Shown piece by piece: positions 1,338-40,788 of a DNA stretch of 40,908 nucleotides (positions are counted from its first letter, which is position 1; each line of letters begins with the position of its first letter). Source of the DNA: Candidatus Yaniella excrementigallinarum (GTDB taxonomy: Bacteria > Actinomycetota > Actinomycetes > Actinomycetales > Micrococcaceae); NCBI GenBank assembly GCA_019113675.1, contig DXHA01000084.1:1-40908 (forward strand), written 5' to 3'. Made by a program: the position numbers and the translations under genes. The notes beneath the pieces are model-generated. The model was not told the DNA's origin, made no database searches, and saw only the letters and a list, made by a program, of their open reading frames with translations.

Positions 1338-3632
1338 CTAGTTTCCGAAACGATTGGGCAAGGCGGTAGCCCAACCGTGCCGTAACTCTTCGGCAGTGAC
1401 GGTAAACAGGTCTTGGATTTCTAAGGCTTGTGACCCGGCATCCACCACACCGATCCGCAATGATGGATAACCGCGGGACTCAGCGATGCCGCGGAAACGG
1501 ACTTCTTCCGATAGCGGTACGGCCACCAGGGCGCGCGCTTGGGATTCGGAGAAGAGCGCGGTGAAGGCGTCAATATTATCGCGTTCGGTTACATAATCCA
1601 GGTTGATGCGCATCCCAACCCCGCCTTGAACCACCATGTCTGCCAGTGCCCCGGCCAGACCACCCTCCGATAGGTCGTGGGCGGCATCGAGCATATGGGT
1701 GCGTGATGCATTGGATAGCAAGCCGGCAAGCCGGTATTCCTTGGCCAGATCAACTGCCGGAGGCATACCACCAAGATGGCCACGCAGGTGAGCAAACTGT
1801 GAACCGTCAAGTTCATCGAAGGTCTCACCCAGCAGGTAGATGGCTGAACCATCAAAAGCCGGATGTAACCAGGAAGGCACCGCGGTAGCTACGTCATCGT
1901 AGCGACCCAGGGTCACAATCATCGGTGTGGGATGAATTGCGGTATCAACGGTTTGGTTATACAGTGACACATTTCCACCGGTGACCGGAATGCCCAGCTC
2001 TTGGCAGGCGTCGGCAATCCCGCGGGTGGCTTCGGCGAACTGCCACATCACACCCGGATCTTCGGGCGAACCAAAGTTGAGCCCATCGGAAATACCCATT
2101 GGGGTCGCACCCGAGGTCGCTACATTGCGGTAGGACTCGGCCACAGCCAGCTGGGAACCCAGATATGGGTCCAGGTAGACAAAACGAGAGTTGCAGTCGA
2201 TGGCTAAACCAATGCCCATCCCGGTTTCTTCATCGACCCGGATCACACCGGCATCATTGGGTGGGCCCTGGCGGGTGTTGCCACCCACCGAACTATCGGT
2301 TTGAGAGGTGATCCAAGAACGATCGGCCATATTGGCCGAACCCATCAGCTCAATGACGGCGTCTTTAAGCTCTTCACCGGTTGTCGGCAGTTGCTCGGCC
2401 TGCTGAGATGACCGGAAGGTGGCAGCCTGCAGCGTATCCTGGGATGCCGGTCGAGCATAGGGGCGTTCATATACTGGACCCTCATCGGCCACCGTGACCG
2501 GATCGACATCAACAATGCGTTGGCCATCCCAATCAATGGTGAGTCGACCAGAATCATTGACCTCGCCCAGCCAAGAATATTCCACACCATAGTGTTGCAT
2601 GATCTCTTCGAAAGCGGCGGTGTTATCCGGGGTAACCACCGCCATCATGCGTTCTTGGGATTCTGACATCAAAATATCTCCGGCCGATAATTCGGCGTCA
2701 CGCAATAGCACATTGGTTAGTTCGATGTGCATACCGCCGTCACCACCGGCGGCTAGCTCACTGGTGGCACAGGCAATGCCAGCAGCGCCCAAATCCTGAA
2801 TGCCTTCGACCAGCGATTTGGCGAATAATTCTAGGGTGGCCTCGATAATCACGTTTTCTTGCAGCGGGTCGCCGGCTTGGACCACCGGGGTGTTGGCGGC
2901 ACCTTCGTCGTCGAAGGCCGCCGAGCTCATCGCGGCTCCACCAATGCCGTCGCCGCCGGTACGGGCACCAAATAACACAATCTTGTTACCGGCACCGGTG
3001 GCCTGGGCTAAGCGGAGATTTTCGTGCCGCAGCACACCAACCGCTCCGGCATTTACTAACGGGTTGCCCTGGAACACCGGGTCAAACGCCGTTTCACCGG
3101 CTACGTTTGGGACCCCCAAAATATTTCCGTAGTGACCCACCCCGGCCACCGCGCCTTTGATGATCCGGGCCGTATCCGGGTGGTCTTCGTGACCAACACG
3201 TAGCGAATCTAATACCGCTACCGGGCGGGCGCCCATGGAAATAATGTCACGTACTACGCCACCAATACCGGTGGCAGCGCCCTGGAATGGTTCTAAATAC
3301 GACGGCGAGTTATGGGATTCGACCTTGAAGGTTACCGCCCAACCGTCGCCCAGATCTACCACACCGGCGTTTTCGCCTAAGCCCACCAGCATGTTTTCCT
3401 GCATTTTCTCGGTGGTCTTTTGCCCGAACTGTTTCAGATGTACTTTGGAAGACTTATACGAGGTATGTTCAGACCACATTGACGAATACATGGCCAATTC
3501 AGCTTCGGTGGGACGGCGCTGTAAAATCTCTCGGATCCGCTGATACTCTGTGTCGTTTAGACCCAGCTGAGCCCACGGTTGTTCAACATCAGGGGTCTGG
3601 CCCGCATGGTCAACGGTATCTAATTTATTCAC
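1338..3632 (-). CDS. purL: Phosphoribosylformylglycinamidine synthase, large subunit PurL
   Basis: PurL uses ATP and ammonia to convert FGAR to FGAM, the fourth step of purine synthesis, in complex with PurS and PurQ. The product is 764 aa, normal for the small-type PurL. Visible family blocks are the HTSYKSS segment near the N-terminus, KVESHNSPS followed by the glycine-rich GIGGVVRD, the central GGNTRQGPPNDAG, and TGGNVSLYN in the C-terminal half. I chose the GTG at 3630-3632 because it has an AAAGGAG site 6-7 nt upstream and overlaps the purQ stop by 8 nt; an open extension upstream to 3755 is purQ in another frame. The synthase looks intact, in contrast to its glutaminase partner. Translational coupling to purQ is likely. 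Confidence 0.96.
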   Translation of the reverse strand: MNKLDTVDHAGQTPDVEQPWAQLGLNDTEYQRIREILQRRPTEAELAMYSSMWSEHTSYKSSKVHLKQFGQKTTEKMQENMLVGLGENAGVVDLGDGWAVTFKVESHNSPSYLEPFQGAATGIGGVVRDIISMGARPVAVLDSLRVGHEDHPDTARIIKGAVAGVGHYGNILGVPNVAGETAFDPVFQGNPLVNAGAVGVLRHENLRLAQATGAGNKIVLFGARTGGDGIGGAAMSSAAFDDEGAANTPVVQAGDPLQENVIIEATLELFAKSLVEGIQDLGAAGIACATSELAAGGDGGMHIELTNVLLRDAELSAGDILMSESQERMMAVVTPDNTAAFEEIMQHYGVEYSWLGEVNDSGRLTIDWDGQRIVDVDPVTVADEGPVYERPYARPASQDTLQAATFRSSQQAEQLPTTGEELKDAVIELMGSANMADRSWITSQTDSSVGGNTRQGPPNDAGVIRVDEETGMGIGLAIDCNSRFVYLDPYLGSQLAVAESYRNVATSGATPMGISDGLNFGSPEDPGVMWQFAEATRGIADACQELGIPVTGGNVSLYNQTVDTAIHPTPMIVTLGRYDDVATAVPSWLHPAFDGSAIYLLGETFDELDGSQFAHLRGHLGGMPPAVDLAKEYRLAGLLSNASRTHMLDAAHDLSEGGLAGALADMVVQGGVGMRINLDYVTERDNIDAFTALFSESQARALVAVPLSEEVRFRGIAESRGYPSLRIGVVDAGSQALEIQDLFTVTAEELRHGWATALPNRFGN

Positions 3633-4362
3633 TGACAACTCCTTTACCCTTGGCAGCACGAGCAGCCCGCACAAGAGAGACAAATAGTCCCTGACCATCC
3701 ACACCGAAGCCGGGGCCATCGGGATGATCAGTACCAAAACCGGCCTCGATGGCATACTCTGGGCTGGCCATCAAGCCCAGTACCAACCCATTATCGGAGC
3801 TGATCCCGGCAATATTATTCACCGAATCCATGTTAGAAACCGTGGTCCGCACGATCACGTTGCCGGAGCGTTCCAACTCGGCAAGTTCATCTTCGGTGGC
3901 TGTGTATTGGGCGTAAGCACCCTTATGCACTAAGCGAATATATTCACCAGGTTCATAGGCGCTAGTGATCGCCGTTGAATTATCTTCGATGACATAGTCT
4001 ACTTCGCTGTGTTGATAACCCGGTGAGGCATTAGCAATAAACCCACCGGGCAATAGCTTGGCCTCAGTAAGAACCTGGAAACCATTGCCCAAGCCGATCA
4101 GTGTCAGCTCCTTAGCCTCTACCGCATCCTGGACAAGGCGCATAATGGGTTGTGTTGCCGCCAGCGCACCGGCACGTAAATAATCACCATAGGAAAATCC
4201 GCCCGGAATAATGACCACCGCCAGGTCTGCTAAATCTGGTGCCACCGTGGTTTTCGGATGTAATTTCACCGGGGTTCCGCCGGCGAGGTCAACGGCACGA
4301 ATCACCGAGGGGGCATCCGTTGCCGCGTCGAACATGACGACGCCAATTTTTGGTGCACTCAT
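3625..4362 (-). CDS. purQ: PurQ-like subunit of FGAM synthase, glutaminase triad lost
   Basis: By position and fold this is PurQ, the class I glutamine amidotransferase that feeds ammonia to PurL. The 245-aa product keeps the IPGGFSYGDYLRAG block (residues 52-65), NGFQVL and LLPGG. The catalytic residues are not kept. The nucleophile Cys of GICNGFQ is Gly92 (GLGNGFQ), and the His of the PHPE motif is Ser200 (MASPE), although the Glu remains (Glu202). The usual FPG near the N-terminus reads MFDAATD, and the GEGRY segment reads HKGAY. I see these substitutions directly in the DNA with no frameshift. It overlaps purS by 4 nt (ATGA) and purL by 8 nt. Known biology says such a protein should not hydrolyse glutamine; I infer a structural role in the PurSQL complex with free ammonia or another glutaminase as nitrogen source. 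Confidence 0.92.
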   Translation of the reverse strand: MSAPKIGVVMFDAATDAPSVIRAVDLAGGTPVKLHPKTTVAPDLADLAVVIIPGGFSYGDYLRAGALAATQPIMRLVQDAVEAKELTLIGLGNGFQVLTEAKLLPGGFIANASPGYQHSEVDYVIEDNSTAITSAYEPGEYIRLVHKGAYAQYTATEDELAELERSGNVIVRTTVSNMDSVNNIAGISSDNGLVLGLMASPEYAIEAGFGTDHPDGPGFGVDGQGLFVSLVRAARAAKGKGVVSE

Positions 4363-4607
4363 TTAGCCACCTCAACATTGGCAATATATTCGGTTGACGG
4401 GTTTGCTAATAATTGGCTAGCCAGGGCTTTGGCACGATCCAGAACATCCGCGGTTGCTTCACCTTCAACGGTGAGCTCGAAACGTTTTCCTTGCCGGACC
4501 TGTGAAAACTCGCGGAAACCTAACTCGGGCAGCCGAGCATCGATGGCTTTCCCCTGTGGGTCAAGCACTTCAGGCTTCGGCATGACATCAACGACGATAG
4601 TGGGCAT
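4359..4607 (-). CDS. purS: Phosphoribosylformylglycinamidine synthase subunit PurS
   Basis: PurS is the small bridging subunit that joins PurQ and PurL in the FGAM synthase complex. The 82-aa product starts MPTIVVDVMPKPEV and contains LDPQGKAI and the conserved QVRQGKRFELTVEG block, with normal family length. The ATG at 4605-4607 has an AGGAG site 6 nt upstream, which makes it better than a start 27 nt further out. Its TGA overlaps the purQ ATG, so it is the first gene of a tight three-gene operon. Confidence 0.94.
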   Translation of the reverse strand: MPTIVVDVMPKPEVLDPQGKAIDARLPELGFREFSQVRQGKRFELTVEGEATADVLDRAKALASQLLANPSTEYIANVEVAK

Positions 4608-15332: not shown

Positions 15333-16244
15333 TTAGGACGTCAGCGAGTCGACGTAGTCTTGGTTTTCGTCCATCCAGTCCCGGACAACATCCGGGTAGT
15401 CGCTCTGATCAACATCTTCGACAAACAGATCTTCTTCAAGATCCTGCAGCGTATCGGTGTCAATCTTGAAGTCGGCTAACCAGTCGAAGACTTCCGGCTG
15501 ATTATCGGAGAACTCATTGTGCGCATAGGTGGTCATGTGCTCTTCCTGACCGAGCGCTTCTTGGGGGTCATCCAACGGTTTAATGTCATAGGCGTTGAAT
15601 GCCCAGTGTGGCATCCACAGGGTGACGGCAATATTGTCACCTGCAGAAAGTGTGGTATCTAGTTCTTGCAGCATTGCAGGAGTAGAGGAAGTGGTGAAGT
15701 CCCAATCGTCCAGACCGTAATCCGGGATTACATAGGATTCGGTGCGTTCAGTCAACCCTGCGCCCGGCTCAATACCAACCAGTGTGTTATCGAAATCATC
15801 AGCGTGGTCGGCTAGTTCGTCAAGCGAGTCAACGGGGGCATCTTCGTTGACGGCAATAACCTGGCGTGCGTCACTGTTCCACTCGCCAACCTTTTCAATG
15901 TCATCACCGTATTCTTCAATGTAATCGGCGTGAGTGACCGGTTGCCAGACGTCCATAACGAAGTCTATGTCCCCGGAAGCGATACCAGAGTAGCCCGGCG
16001 CCAAATCGACGTAGGTTTTATTTACGGTGTAACCCTCATCCTCAAGAATATTGGCCCATAGTTCAGAGACCGCGATGCCTTCTTCCCAACCCTGGAAGAT
16101 GCCCATCTCAATGGTGTCACCGCCGTCACCACCGGTATCAGCGGCTTCCCCGTCGCCACAGGCAGTCAGGGCTAATCCAGCTGCAGCTGCAATTGCCGTG
16201 ACACGACCGAGAGCTGGAAACGTTTTCTTTGTTTTATTGTTCAT
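15333..16244 (-). CDS. Orphan glycine betaine-binding lipoprotein
   Basis: This extracytoplasmic solute-binding protein (303 aa) captures glycine betaine or a related quaternary amine for an ABC importer. It has a lipoprotein signal peptide with lipobox LTAC followed by an acidic, Gly-rich linker. The mature part has the OpuAC/ProX fold motifs GWEEGIAVSELWA, DVWQPVTHADY, IEPGAGLTERTE and VTLWMPHWAF, which supply the aromatic cage. The start ATG at 16242-16244 has AAGGA 6 nt upstream. No permease or ATPase gene adjoins it. A close paralogue is the last gene of the complete transporter operon at 24.9-27.7 kb, so it may feed that same translocator with a different affinity or substrate. The mature protein is strongly acidic, a sign of life at high salt. 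Confidence 0.9.
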   Translation of the reverse strand: MNNKTKKTFPALGRVTAIAAAAGLALTACGDGEAADTGGDGGDTIEMGIFQGWEEGIAVSELWANILEDEGYTVNKTYVDLAPGYSGIASGDIDFVMDVWQPVTHADYIEEYGDDIEKVGEWNSDARQVIAVNEDAPVDSLDELADHADDFDNTLVGIEPGAGLTERTESYVIPDYGLDDWDFTTSSTPAMLQELDTTLSAGDNIAVTLWMPHWAFNAYDIKPLDDPQEALGQEEHMTTYAHNEFSDNQPEVFDWLADFKIDTDTLQDLEEDLFVEDVDQSDYPDVVRDWMDENQDYVDSLTS

Positions 16245-16448
16245 GTTGTTCCTTGAAGTAGACTGTCGCATTATCCTACCGTAACACCAGTCACATGCTT
16301 GCCCAAGAACTTAGGCACACTGTGCATAACTCATGCCGAATACAGCGCAAACCGTAACCCTGTTATACAACCGTTTATCGACGGATATGCTCAAAATAAC
16401 GTTCCACAGTTTGACTAGGCGAATGCAGAATTGACGGGGTGCTAAGGC

Positions 16449-24760: not shown

Positions 24761-24858
24761 TTTGAGTGTGTACGCGACCTATATTTATTCTGTTAGCAAG
24801 TTGTACAAGGACGTGAGGAGGAGCTCACCCGCTACCTATAGCGGTGGGTCAAAGCACC

Positions 24859-25950
24859 ATGAGCGAACCAAACACAGACCAGCCCGTTGTACGGGTTGAA
24901 AATGTCTATAAGATCTTTGGTCGGCGTCCCAAAGCTGTTGTTGAAAAAATGAAAGCCGGTGCGACTCGTCAAGATGTTGAAGACGACGGCACCGCGGCAG
25001 TAATTAACGCAACGTTCGATGTATATCCCGGCGAAATTTTCGTTGTCATGGGGCTATCGGGATCGGGTAAATCCACGCTGATTCGTACGTTGAATGCACT
25101 GCAGCCAGCAACTACGGGAACCGTAGAAGTAAGGGGCCAAGACTTAGCCAAGCTTTCTCCCAAGGAGCTTCGGGCACTGCGTTCGGAACACATCTCGATG
25201 GTGTTTCAGCACTTCGCATTGTTCCCGCACTGGACGGTTGTTGAAAACGCCGCCTACAGTCTTGAAACTCAGGGCGTAGCAAAAGCAGAACGCTATGAGA
25301 AAGCCCGCGAGGTGTTATCCTCCGTCGGGCTCGACGGGTGGGAAGAATCCTACCCATCTGAGCTATCGGGTGGTATGCAACAGCGTGTTGGCCTTGCCCG
25401 CGCGCTGGCAGCCGGTACAGACATCATGTTGATGGACGAAGCGTTTTCAGCGCTTGATCCGCTTATTCGACGTGAAATGCAAGAAGAGCTCAGACAAATT
25501 CAAAATGAGCTTGGACGAACCATTATTTTCATTACTCACGACCTCAATGAAGCTATGTTCTTGGGCGATCGCATTGCAGTAATGAAAGACGGCGAAATCG
25601 CCCAAATTGGTACGCCAGAACAAATCCTTTCCGAACCGGCTGATGACTATGTCGCATCGTTTACCTCGGATGTGGATCGTGCCCGCGTGTTGACTGCTGA
25701 GTCCGTCATGGTTCCAGAAACAGAACTCACGGCAGAAGACCGTGCTGCATTTGGGCGCAAGACCCTGACAGTCAAGGCCGACGCAACTATTCAAGACATT
25801 GTTCCTGTGGTTTTAAAAGCCCAGGGTCCTGTTGCTGTAGAAGGCAACAACACAAATGAACACCTTGGGTACATCCGGCTCGAAACTCTCCTCGAGGCGC
25901 TGACACCACAAGAATCTGAAGTCGTAGACGGCGCAGGGGAGGCAAAATAA
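24859..25950 (+). CDS. proV: Glycine betaine/proline ABC transporter, ATP-binding subunit
   Basis: This cytoplasmic ATPase drives betaine uptake for osmoprotection. The product has Walker [10 protein letters not shown] (65-73), Q-loop [11 protein letters not shown], signature [15 protein letters not shown], and Walker [13 protein letters not shown]. The insertion before Walker A (about 20-50) with [10 protein letters not shown] is typical of ProV/OpuAA. A short C-terminal domain (about 285-350) occupies the position of the CBS pair, which senses ionic strength in relatives. I chose the ATG at 24859; a GTG 15 nt upstream is also in frame. Ribosome sites are unclear because GAGGAGG lies about 35 nt upstream, beyond a hairpin. 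The permease gene starts immediately after its stop. Confidence 0.94.
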
Positions 25951-26790
25951 ATGGAAATTCCAGTACCACGTATTCCACTAGGCGACTGGGTTGAGGTTGT
26001 CCTCGATTGGTTGCTAGCCACGCTTGGCACTTTCTTTACGGTTATCCGTAATTTATTGGAAACCCTTTATGAGTTCTTACTCTGGGTACTCATCACTCCT
26101 GAATGGTGGATTGTCACTATCGTTCTTGCCGGGCTCGGATGGTGGCTGCGCAGCTGGCAGCTGGCATTAGGCACCGTGATCGGATTCGTTGTGATCGTCG
26201 GCGTCAACCAGTGGCCTAATGCGATGTCCACGTTGTCATTGGTCGCCATCGCCACTTTGATCGCAGTTGTGTTCAGTATCCCGCTGGGGATCTGGGCGGC
26301 GAAGTCCCACACCGCTTCCAAAATTTTGCGGCCCATCCTCGACTTCATGCAGACTATGCCCCCGATGGTGTATCTGATTCCTGCACTGGTTATTTTCCGC
26401 GTAGGGGTCGTTCCAGGCATGGTTGCTACTGTAATTTTCGCGATGGCACCTGGGGTACGCTTTACTGAACTGGGTATTCGCAATGTTGATGCTGAAGTAG
26501 TTGAAGCCGGTAAGGCATTTGGCTCCCCGCCTGGAAAAATACTGCGTCAGATTCAGCTACCACTGGCACTGCCGACAATTATGGCCGGTGTAAACCAGGT
26601 CATTATGCTGTCGTTGTCGATGGTTGTTATTGCCGGTATGGTCGGCGCTGGCGGACTTGGTGGCGAGGTCGTTGCCTCATTGAACCGCATTAATGCTGGT
26701 CTTGGCTTCGAGTCTGGTCTTGCCGTGGTCATCTTAGCTATGTACCTTGACAGACTGACCTCGATCCAAGCGCAGCATAACAGCCACTAA
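25951..26790 (+). CDS. proW: Glycine betaine ABC transporter, permease subunit
   Basis: The 279-aa membrane subunit forms the translocation pore with ProV. It has an amphipathic N-terminal segment and about six to seven membrane helices. The EAA loop that contacts the ATPase reads EAGKAFGSPPGKILRQIQLP. QTMPPMVYLIPALVIF and MLSLSMVVIAGMVGAGGLG are typical of the ProW/OpuAB family. The ATG directly follows the proV stop and uses GGGGAGG located inside the end of proV, so translation is coupled. Confidence 0.94.
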   Translation: MEIPVPRIPLGDWVEVVLDWLLATLGTFFTVIRNLLETLYEFLLWVLITPEWWIVTIVLAGLGWWLRSWQLALGTVIGFVVIVGVNQWPNAMSTLSLVAIATLIAVVFSIPLGIWAAKSHTASKILRPILDFMQTMPPMVYLIPALVIFRVGVVPGMVATVIFAMAPGVRFTELGIRNVDAEVVEAGKAFGSPPGKILRQIQLPLALPTIMAGVNQVIMLSLSMVVIAGMVGAGGLGGEVVASLNRINAGLGFESGLAVVILAMYLDRLTSIQAQHNSH

Positions 26791-26835
26791 TCACAAGTTT
26801 CACTCAAAAATCCTTAAGAAGGAAATGAAAGGAAG

Positions 26836-27744
26836 ATGTTGACCTTGAAATCACGTTTATTTCAATCGGTAACAGCTCTATCCGTAGCCGCCTTGGCTTT
26901 GACCGCTTGCGGTGATGATAATGGAGGTGGCGGTGACGCAGACGGCGACGCCGGAGAAATTACTATTGGAGTCTTTAACGGCTGGGAAGAGGGCATTGCA
27001 GTCTCCGAGCTGTGGGCCTATCTCCTTGAAGAAGAGGGCTATGAGGTAAACCTCGAATATGCTGACCCGGCCCCGGTATATTCTGGATTGGCAACTAACG
27101 ACTACAACTTTACTCTGGATACCTGGCTGCCGATCACCCACGAGGACTACGTAGATGAATACAGCGATGACATCACCGACCTTGGAGTCTGGAATGATGA
27201 GTCATCACTACATCTAGCGGTCAACGAGGATGCCCCGATCGATTCGATTGAAGAACTGGCAGATAATGCTGACGAGTTCAACAACGAGATTATCGGTATC
27301 GACCCCGGTGCCGGCATCACTCAGCAAGTCGAAAATGAAGCTATTCCAACCTATGGTCTAGAAGACATGGACTTCACGACCTCGGGTACCCCAGCAATGC
27401 TGCAGGAACTGGAAAGCGCCACCGAATCAGGCGACAATATTGTTGTTACTCTGTGGCGTCCACACTGGGCATACGATGCATACCCGGTGCGTGACCTAGA
27501 GGACCCAGAAGGTGCGATGGGTGAAACTGAAGCCATCCACGGTACTGCAAACGCGGACTGGGCTGAAGATGAAGACAATGCCGATGTCGTTGGCTGGTTG
27601 GAAGATTTCGAAATGGATTCGGATACTCTCTACTCGCTTGAAAATGAGATGTTCAACGAGAATCCAGATACCGATGATTACCGCCCAATTATTGAAGATT
27701 GGGTTGCCGAGAACCAAGACTACGTTGATGGCCTGACTGACTAG
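26836..27744 (+). CDS. proX: Glycine betaine-binding lipoprotein of the ABC transporter
   Basis: The 302-aa binding protein has a signal peptide with lipobox LTAC (Cys25 would be lipidated), an acidic Gly/Asp linker, and OpuAC-type motifs GWEEGIAVSELWA, DTWLPITHEDY, IDPGAGITQQ and VTLWRPHWAY. The Trp and Tyr residues in these blocks build the aromatic cage for the trimethylammonium head. It is very acidic. It starts 45 nt after proW with a GAAAGGA ribosome site and ends before a strong terminator. It is a clear paralogue of the orphan protein encoded at 15333-16244. Confidence 0.94.
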   Translation: MLTLKSRLFQSVTALSVAALALTACGDDNGGGGDADGDAGEITIGVFNGWEEGIAVSELWAYLLEEEGYEVNLEYADPAPVYSGLATNDYNFTLDTWLPITHEDYVDEYSDDITDLGVWNDESSLHLAVNEDAPIDSIEELADNADEFNNEIIGIDPGAGITQQVENEAIPTYGLEDMDFTTSGTPAMLQELESATESGDNIVVTLWRPHWAYDAYPVRDLEDPEGAMGETEAIHGTANADWAEDEDNADVVGWLEDFEMDSDTLYSLENEMFNENPDTDDYRPIIEDWVAENQDYVDGLTD

Positions 27745-39798: not shown

Positions 39799-40788
39799 AT
39801 GGCAATCGCATTTTTTGGTACCGGCGGCACAATTTCTAACCGGGGCACTGGTTCTGGGCAATACCTCGATTATCTGGACCGTGGTGAGGTTATGTCGGCT
39901 AAAGAGCTGATCTCGCTGTACCCCGCATTGGACGAGATTTCCGATATCCGCGTTGAGTCCTTCGGCACACTGCGCTCTAAACACGTCACAAGTGAACATT
40001 GGAAGACGTTAGCTCAGCGGCTCGATGAATGTTTAAAAGAGCCGGATATTGTAGGGGCTGTCATTGCCCATGGGACCGGTACATTAGAAGAGACCGCCTG
40101 GTTTCTCCATCTGGTGGTAGCCACCAATAAACCAGTGGTGATCGTCGGAGCGCAGCGTCCCGGCAATACGGTGGGCTCTGATACCGCATTGAACCTGGCC
40201 GATGCTTTTCGGGTCGCTGTATCTCCGCAGTCAGTAGGTGCAGGGGTGACGGTGGTTATGAATCGGCAGATCCACTCAGCCCGTGACGTTAGTAAAGTTG
40301 CTAACCATAGCCTAACGGCGCTGCAATCACCGGTGCGTGGAGCTTTAGGCATGATTCAAGCAGATAATACGGTGCGTTACTGGCGGAAGCCGCCAAACCC
40401 GCATACTACAGACTCAGCGTTTGCGGCAACCGCCGTGTCAGCACCCAGGGTCGATATCGTACATGCCTATACTGATGCCGACGCCACTGCCGTTGACGCG
40501 TTTCTCGCCGCAGGGGCAGCCGGGCTGATCGCTGTGGGGTATCCACCCGGAACCTTGACTCAGCCATTAGACGATGCCATCGATATAGCGATTGGCCACG
40601 GAATCCTTGTCGTTCAAGCGACTAGAGCACAACTAGAACCCCAGGTTATGGCTAGGAGTGGTTTGGTCGGCCGTGGACTGATCGCAAATACCGACATTAC
40701 TCCGACAAAAGCTCGAATCTTATTGCAATTGTGTCTAGCCCACCGGTTGGATCGGGACGACACAGCAGAGATTTTTGCTGCCTATTAG
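39799..40788 (+). CDS. Asparaginase-family amidohydrolase with altered catalytic motif
   Basis: The 329-aa product has the type I/II asparaginase fold. The first catalytic motif FGTGGTISN has the nucleophile Thr11. The second, normally HGTDTLEET, reads HGTGTLEET (91-99): Thr93 is kept but the Asp equivalent to E. coli AnsB Asp90 is Gly94. The catalytic Lys in SARDVSK (Lys166) is present. PPGTLTQPLDDAI in the C-terminal domain takes the place of the usual G-x-GNV-P loop. There is no signal peptide, so it is cytoplasmic. An AGGAGG site precedes the ATG by 6 nt. It probably hydrolyses an amide, but substrate specificity may differ from asparagine. Confidence 0.88.
   Translation: MAIAFFGTGGTISNRGTGSGQYLDYLDRGEVMSAKELISLYPALDEISDIRVESFGTLRSKHVTSEHWKTLAQRLDECLKEPDIVGAVIAHGTGTLEETAWFLHLVVATNKPVVIVGAQRPGNTVGSDTALNLADAFRVAVSPQSVGAGVTVVMNRQIHSARDVSKVANHSLTALQSPVRGALGMIQADNTVRYWRKPPNPHTTDSAFAATAVSAPRVDIVHAYTDADATAVDAFLAAGAAGLIAVGYPPGTLTQPLDDAIDIAIGHGILVVQATRAQLEPQVMARSGLVGRGLIANTDITPTKARILLQLCLAHRLDRDDTAEIFAAY

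Follow-up and report, generated by a model that had tools for sequence, protein, structure and literature searches.

A PurQ subunit without catalytic Cys and His in Yaniella and Enteractinococcus: a likely retreat from glutamine towards free ammonia

The stretch of DNA analysed here, hereafter the window, comprises the 40,908 nucleotides of contig DXHA01000084.1 from Candidatus Yaniella excrementigallinarum. On its minus strand lie the three genes of an FGAM synthase operon, namely purS (4359..4607), purQ (3625..4362, encoding 245 residues) and purL (1338..3632). The purQ reading frame is open over the whole gene. It shares four nucleotides, ATGA, with purS, and eight with purL, which begins with GTG at 3632. 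The original prediction had placed purQ correctly, leaving its minus strand unstated, and its description of a clean frame, of both overlaps and of an intact PurL is borne out. Indeed, the synthetase subunit PurL reaches 914.9 bits against NF002290 (cut-off 648) and was aligned to solved PurL chains. The purS product matches PF02700 (79.9 bits) and TIGR00302 (46.8 bits, cut-off 39), and scores 74.3 bits against NF004630 (cut-off 75). Elsewhere in the window, we noted an asparaginase-type gene (39799..40788, plus strand; PF00710 and PF17763; TIGR00520 238.8 bits, below cut-off), which is a possible ammonia source. Choline/betaine-type ABC transporter genes are found at 24844..27744; apart from these, 15333..16271 encodes another substrate-binding protein of this type.

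PurQ is the glutaminase-type subunit of FGAM synthase. Its functional sites were located by alignment to chain 3d54_D of the T. maritima PurLQS structure and to PurQ relatives. The catalytic Cys is replaced by Gly92 (codon GGC, 4087..4089) and the catalytic His by Ser200 (codon AGC, 3763..3765), so that Glu202 (3757..3759) is the sole residue of the triad retained; all three codons are on the minus strand. The three assignments agree with those first proposed. In addition, the protein contains no cysteine at all. Two further segments had been described as altered. The FPG segment indeed reads FDA here. The other one, KGAYAQY, does differ from GEGRY, but GEGRY is not the form of most listed actinobacterial relatives, which have KNQDGQY, KNGEGGY or similar. 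The protein falls under both curated PurQ cut-offs (169.8 bits for NF002957, cut-off 212; 137.6 bits for TIGR01737, cut-off 177.8) and yet is still recognisable by profile. Its identity as a PurQ is carried by its match to 3d54_D, by its position in the tree and by its overlaps with purS and purL, and not by the Cys-His-Glu triad, which here reads Gly-Ser-Glu.

Each of the nine Yaniella/Enteractinococcus genomes (hereafter the genus) has one purQ copy, and the other eight proteins are 72-86% identical to that of the window over the matched part. Gly occupies the Cys site in 9/9 genomes, and Ser or Asn the His site in the eight genomes that reach it; the purQ of G008 stops at a contig end and is therefore outside the second count. 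Among the listed PurQ homologues, the Cys is absent from all 41 rows of the clade, and the His from the 38 rows that extend to the second site, whereas Cys-His-Glu is kept in 77 of the 78 non-clade homologues. Two proteins, P0041 and the fusion P0043, were set aside and stand outside the 41. Residue 200 is Asn, not Ser, in three clade rows. Yaniella flava, Enteractinococcus fodinae and E. coprophilus are among the names that databases give to members of this clade. Cys-His-Glu is also found in 109/110 PurQ loci of other genomes. In a Mycolicibacterium metagenome bin (L107), PurQ reads Tyr-His-Glu, with Tyr at the Cys site, possibly through a sequencing error. Of 52 other genomes of the family, PurQ scores above the cut-off in 51, the remaining one carrying the gene in two pieces.

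The original prediction had suggested mapping the loss by alignment and on a tree; mapped in this way, it is genus-wide. Two other answers that it had raised were rejected. First, a second PurQ was not found in the genome, which is 99.75% complete and whose next matches do not exceed 24.6 bits. Second, a sequencing error is at odds with the independent genus genomes that share both changes.

In a maximum-likelihood tree, 17 genus rows form one clade (100/99), P0041 is its sister (100/99) and P0080 lies on the path toward normal PurQ. The triad reads Ala-His-Glu in P0080, Gly-His-Glu in P0041 and Gly-Ser/Asn-Glu in the genus. Because P0080 and P0041 still have the His but no Cys, these sequences suggest that the Cys was lost first and the His later, in a tree that is midpoint-rooted and in which the P0041 branch is long. 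Within the genus, purQ dN/dS ranges from 0.059 to 0.155 over 28 pairs, values that are rough given dS of 0.62 to 3.06. The protein is clearly constrained, under purifying selection. The predicted structure has a mean pLDDT of 89 and a pTM of 0.89. Its best Foldseek match is 3d54_D (TM-score 0.92 by target length, 0.80 by query length), which is also the only PDB sequence match of PurQ. Hence, the PurQ fold is predicted to be retained. As in pseudo-amidotransferases of the CPS I type, the catalytic Cys is gone, the domain is kept under selection and the synthetase partner, here PurL, is intact, albeit with changes peculiar to the genus. Retention for structure, as first proposed, fits both the dN/dS values and the predicted fold.

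Constraint of this kind might also reflect a new use, for instance as a ligand sensor, or another nucleophile that cuts glutamine. The 37 full-length clade rows all share several changed sites, among them Asp12, Ala17, Ala199 and Gln224, as such a function would have it. However, 34 of these 37 rows have no Cys anywhere, the nucleophile site is a Gly and Ser200 gives way to Asn in three rows, which makes this explanation very improbable.

The losses extend to other amidotransferases. Searching for class I members (PF00117) in three genomes (G000, G004 and G001) returned CarA, GuaA and a fusion of PabA with PabB, all of which have lost the catalytic Cys and His; no intact second CarA or GuaA was among the matches of these genomes. 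CarA reads Gly-Tyr-Glu in 42/42 clade rows and Cys-His-Glu in 77 of the 78 others; the lone exception outside the clade, P0183, reads Gly-His-Gly. In GuaA, the Cys and His are absent from all 23 domain-bearing clade rows and the Glu site is Ala or Gly, against Cys-His-Glu in 94/95 rows outside the clade, where P0265 alone differs (Gly-Asp-Glu). This count omits P0243, a duplicated protein that resembles that of Micrococcus terreus and whose triad is intact, and P0298, which has no domain. GuaA is well conserved in its synthetase part. The two exceptions, P0183 and P0265, may derive from lineages close to P0041 and P0080; these rows hint that loss of the catalytic Cys extends past the genus. 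The PabA part of PabAB, aligned to the Streptomyces venezuelae enzyme, lacks both residues in the two genomes, out of three, in which the gene was matched.

Class II enzymes show a mixed picture. AsnB starts with MSAIV and thus has no N-terminal Cys in both genus genomes where it was found. In two of four genomes, the region near the start of an AsnB-like N-acetylglutaminylglutamine amidotransferase is free of Cys; in the other two, a Cys stands at residue 3, not 2. The AsnB and PabAB losses were counted within the genus alone. PurF, found in eight genomes, keeps its Cys in 8/8 loci, with changes nearby. Two further proteins, which we take to be GlxB-like and YafJ-like, keep their Cys. Among class I proteins, HisH and one amidotransferase, presumably of C26 type, keep both Cys and His. 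In G004, two GlnA-like genes share one locus (L237, 3641-10838) with two genes related to glutamate synthase and with a GlxB-like amidotransferase whose N-terminal Cys is intact.

From these alignments, the PurQ oddity belongs to a wider pattern that spans the genus. The idea of an unusual purine pathway variant holds for the loss of PurQ residues, but its restriction to purines does not, as CarA, GuaA, PabAB and AsnB are changed too. Databases call the CarA and GuaA proteins of the genus "glutamine-hydrolyzing", an annotation that the finding would correct.

Of the two nitrogen sources first proposed, free ammonia and another glutaminase, the former is the more probable, since the same function has been lost in several further amidotransferases of the genus. 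In the latter scheme, another dedicated glutaminase would dock onto PurL in PurQ's stead and glutamine would stay the donor. Candidates exist, since HisH and the C26-type protein retain Cys and His and the window itself carries the asparaginase-type gene. On the other hand, no further PurQ-like protein was found in the genome, purQ remains constrained, and a single donor would also have to supply CarA, GuaA, PabAB and AsnB, with their unrelated partners. We regard such a replacement as improbable.

GlmS is below the cut-off in all nine genus genomes and above it in 52/52 other genomes of the family; it is also below in 3 of 38 genomes elsewhere in the order. In G004, a NagB-like gene is located near AsnB, with two genes between. 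NagB, run in the amination direction with ammonia, would produce glucosamine 6-phosphate and replace GlmS. Against this replacement, the NagB-like protein of G004 scores under the NagB cut-offs. Glutamine synthetase is present in 9/9 genus genomes; therefore, the cells are presumably able to make glutamine.

PyrG was not found in any of the nine genus genomes. In four of them (G000:C58, G001:C2, G004:C1 and G005:C2; L251-L254), pyrG is cleanly absent between recN and a NUDIX gene. Masking was rejected as a cause, as the recN region of these four genomes is without N and the control G010 has pyrG at this position. A loss confined to the genus was rejected as well, since PyrG likewise falls under the cut-off in 26 of 386 other genomes of the family, with at most three candidates scored per genome. 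PyrG was kept out of the argument for this reason. In G040, from another genus of the family that is likewise without PyrG at this position, an amidase-like ORF (L255, 13635-15086; label from sequence reading) sits between recN and the NUDIX gene. CTP may come from cytidine salvage or from an enzyme of a new kind. Possible reliance on salvaged cytidine lends something to the view that PurQ is a decaying relic of a pathway that no longer runs, purines being salvaged. This is nevertheless highly unlikely: purS, purQ and purL are intact and overlapping, the low dN/dS of purQ speaks against decay, PurF was found in eight genomes and GuaA retains a well-conserved synthetase part.

The partner subunit PurL has changed as well. 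Seven genus PurL loci deviate at 18-21 of the 195 columns in which at least 95% of relatives agree; for one partial locus, the count is 6 of 88. In 68 other loci, the median is one deviation; two of these, both alphaproteobacterial, have 47, and none of the remainder has more than 10. Residues 247-262 (2847..2894, minus strand) hold five of the changes specific to the genus. A new route for ammonia is one possible reading of these changes. The PurL motif HNSPS was considered as an ammonia adaptation and rejected, for relatives with a normal PurQ have HNSPS too.

Overall, we consider it likely, with a probability of roughly 0.75, that FGAM synthase with its glutaminase-dead PurQ takes free ammonia, within a genus-wide retreat from glutamine. 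Glutamine amidotransferases normally pass ammonia through protected routes and control its release. Here, ammonia would enter PurL straight from solution, and PurQ would be retained as a docking or tunnel-forming partner needed by PurL and PurS. It would thus be a structural pseudo-glutaminase, serving assembly or shaping the ammonia route. Entry of external ammonia is suggested by analogy with tetrapod CPS I and with GMP synthetases. The latter accept external ammonia in vitro (PMC10526850). The same paper also provides an argument against free ammonia, as the reported Km of GMP synthetases for ammonium is high, up to 174 mM.

The broader reading is that this free-living genus runs its purine, GMP, carbamoyl phosphate, folate, asparagine and amino-sugar steps on free ammonia and keeps the inactive scaffolds, which would be the first lineage-wide conversion from glutamine to ammonia. 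We hold it with less assurance, although the evidence still leans towards it. Against its full form, the sequences indicate that glutamine use is not abolished, as HisH, PurF and the GlxB-like and YafJ-like proteins keep their Cys; the retained Cys of HisH and PurF is not accounted for by ammonia use. The glutamine synthetase of all nine genus genomes likewise speaks against it. If true, the conversion would offer a direct test of how far cells can live on free ammonia, reveal which scaffolds must stay once catalysis goes and put natural ammonia-driven versions of key biosynthetic enzymes on offer.

Concerning ecology, E. helveticum was obtained by selecting for bacteria with a high tolerance of ammonia, and growth of Enteractinococcus spans pH 7-11 (PMC4966478). 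The known ecology fits a use of ammonia. Life in alkaline habitats with plentiful ammonia, for example faeces and sludge, would have made glutaminase activity dispensable. A different driver can be proposed. Natural glutamine analogues that attack the catalytic Cys, as DON, azaserine and acivicin do, could have selected the losses, with ammonia use as the price; only the driver would then differ. Many unrelated amidotransferases are indeed hit at the attacked residue. However, HisH and PurF, which are also targets of such analogues, keep their Cys, and the ecology points toward ammonia. Selection by analogues hence appears a rather doubtful cause.

The operon, its three subunits and the predicted fold are those of the PurLQS FGAM synthase of T. 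maritima (3d54) and B. subtilis, from which the PurQ of the window differs by the replacement of its catalytic Cys and His and by its scores below the curated cut-offs. Among the open-access titles and abstract beginnings that were listed, a coverage that leaves most subscription papers outside, there was no report of an inactive PurQ in the genus, nor of such a set of losses. As surveyed in PMC3261824, archaeal PurQ proteins fully conserve the Cys and Glu, and His is replaced by Asn in two Thaumarchaeota. That paper also describes archaeal PurF' proteins, which resemble the PurQ of the genus in the loss of the amidotransferase Cys and in a suggested ammonia dependence; they differ in being another enzyme, at a single step. 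Tetrapod CPS I, as presented in PMC7657897, has lost the catalytic Cys and uses free ammonia, and likewise keeps its glutaminase-type domain. Ammonia use was measured for CPS I and is inferred for the genus. Single ammonia-dependent relatives of amidotransferases are thus already known, and several in one lineage would be new: CPS I is one animal detoxification enzyme, whereas several biosynthetic enzymes of a bacterial genus are concerned here.
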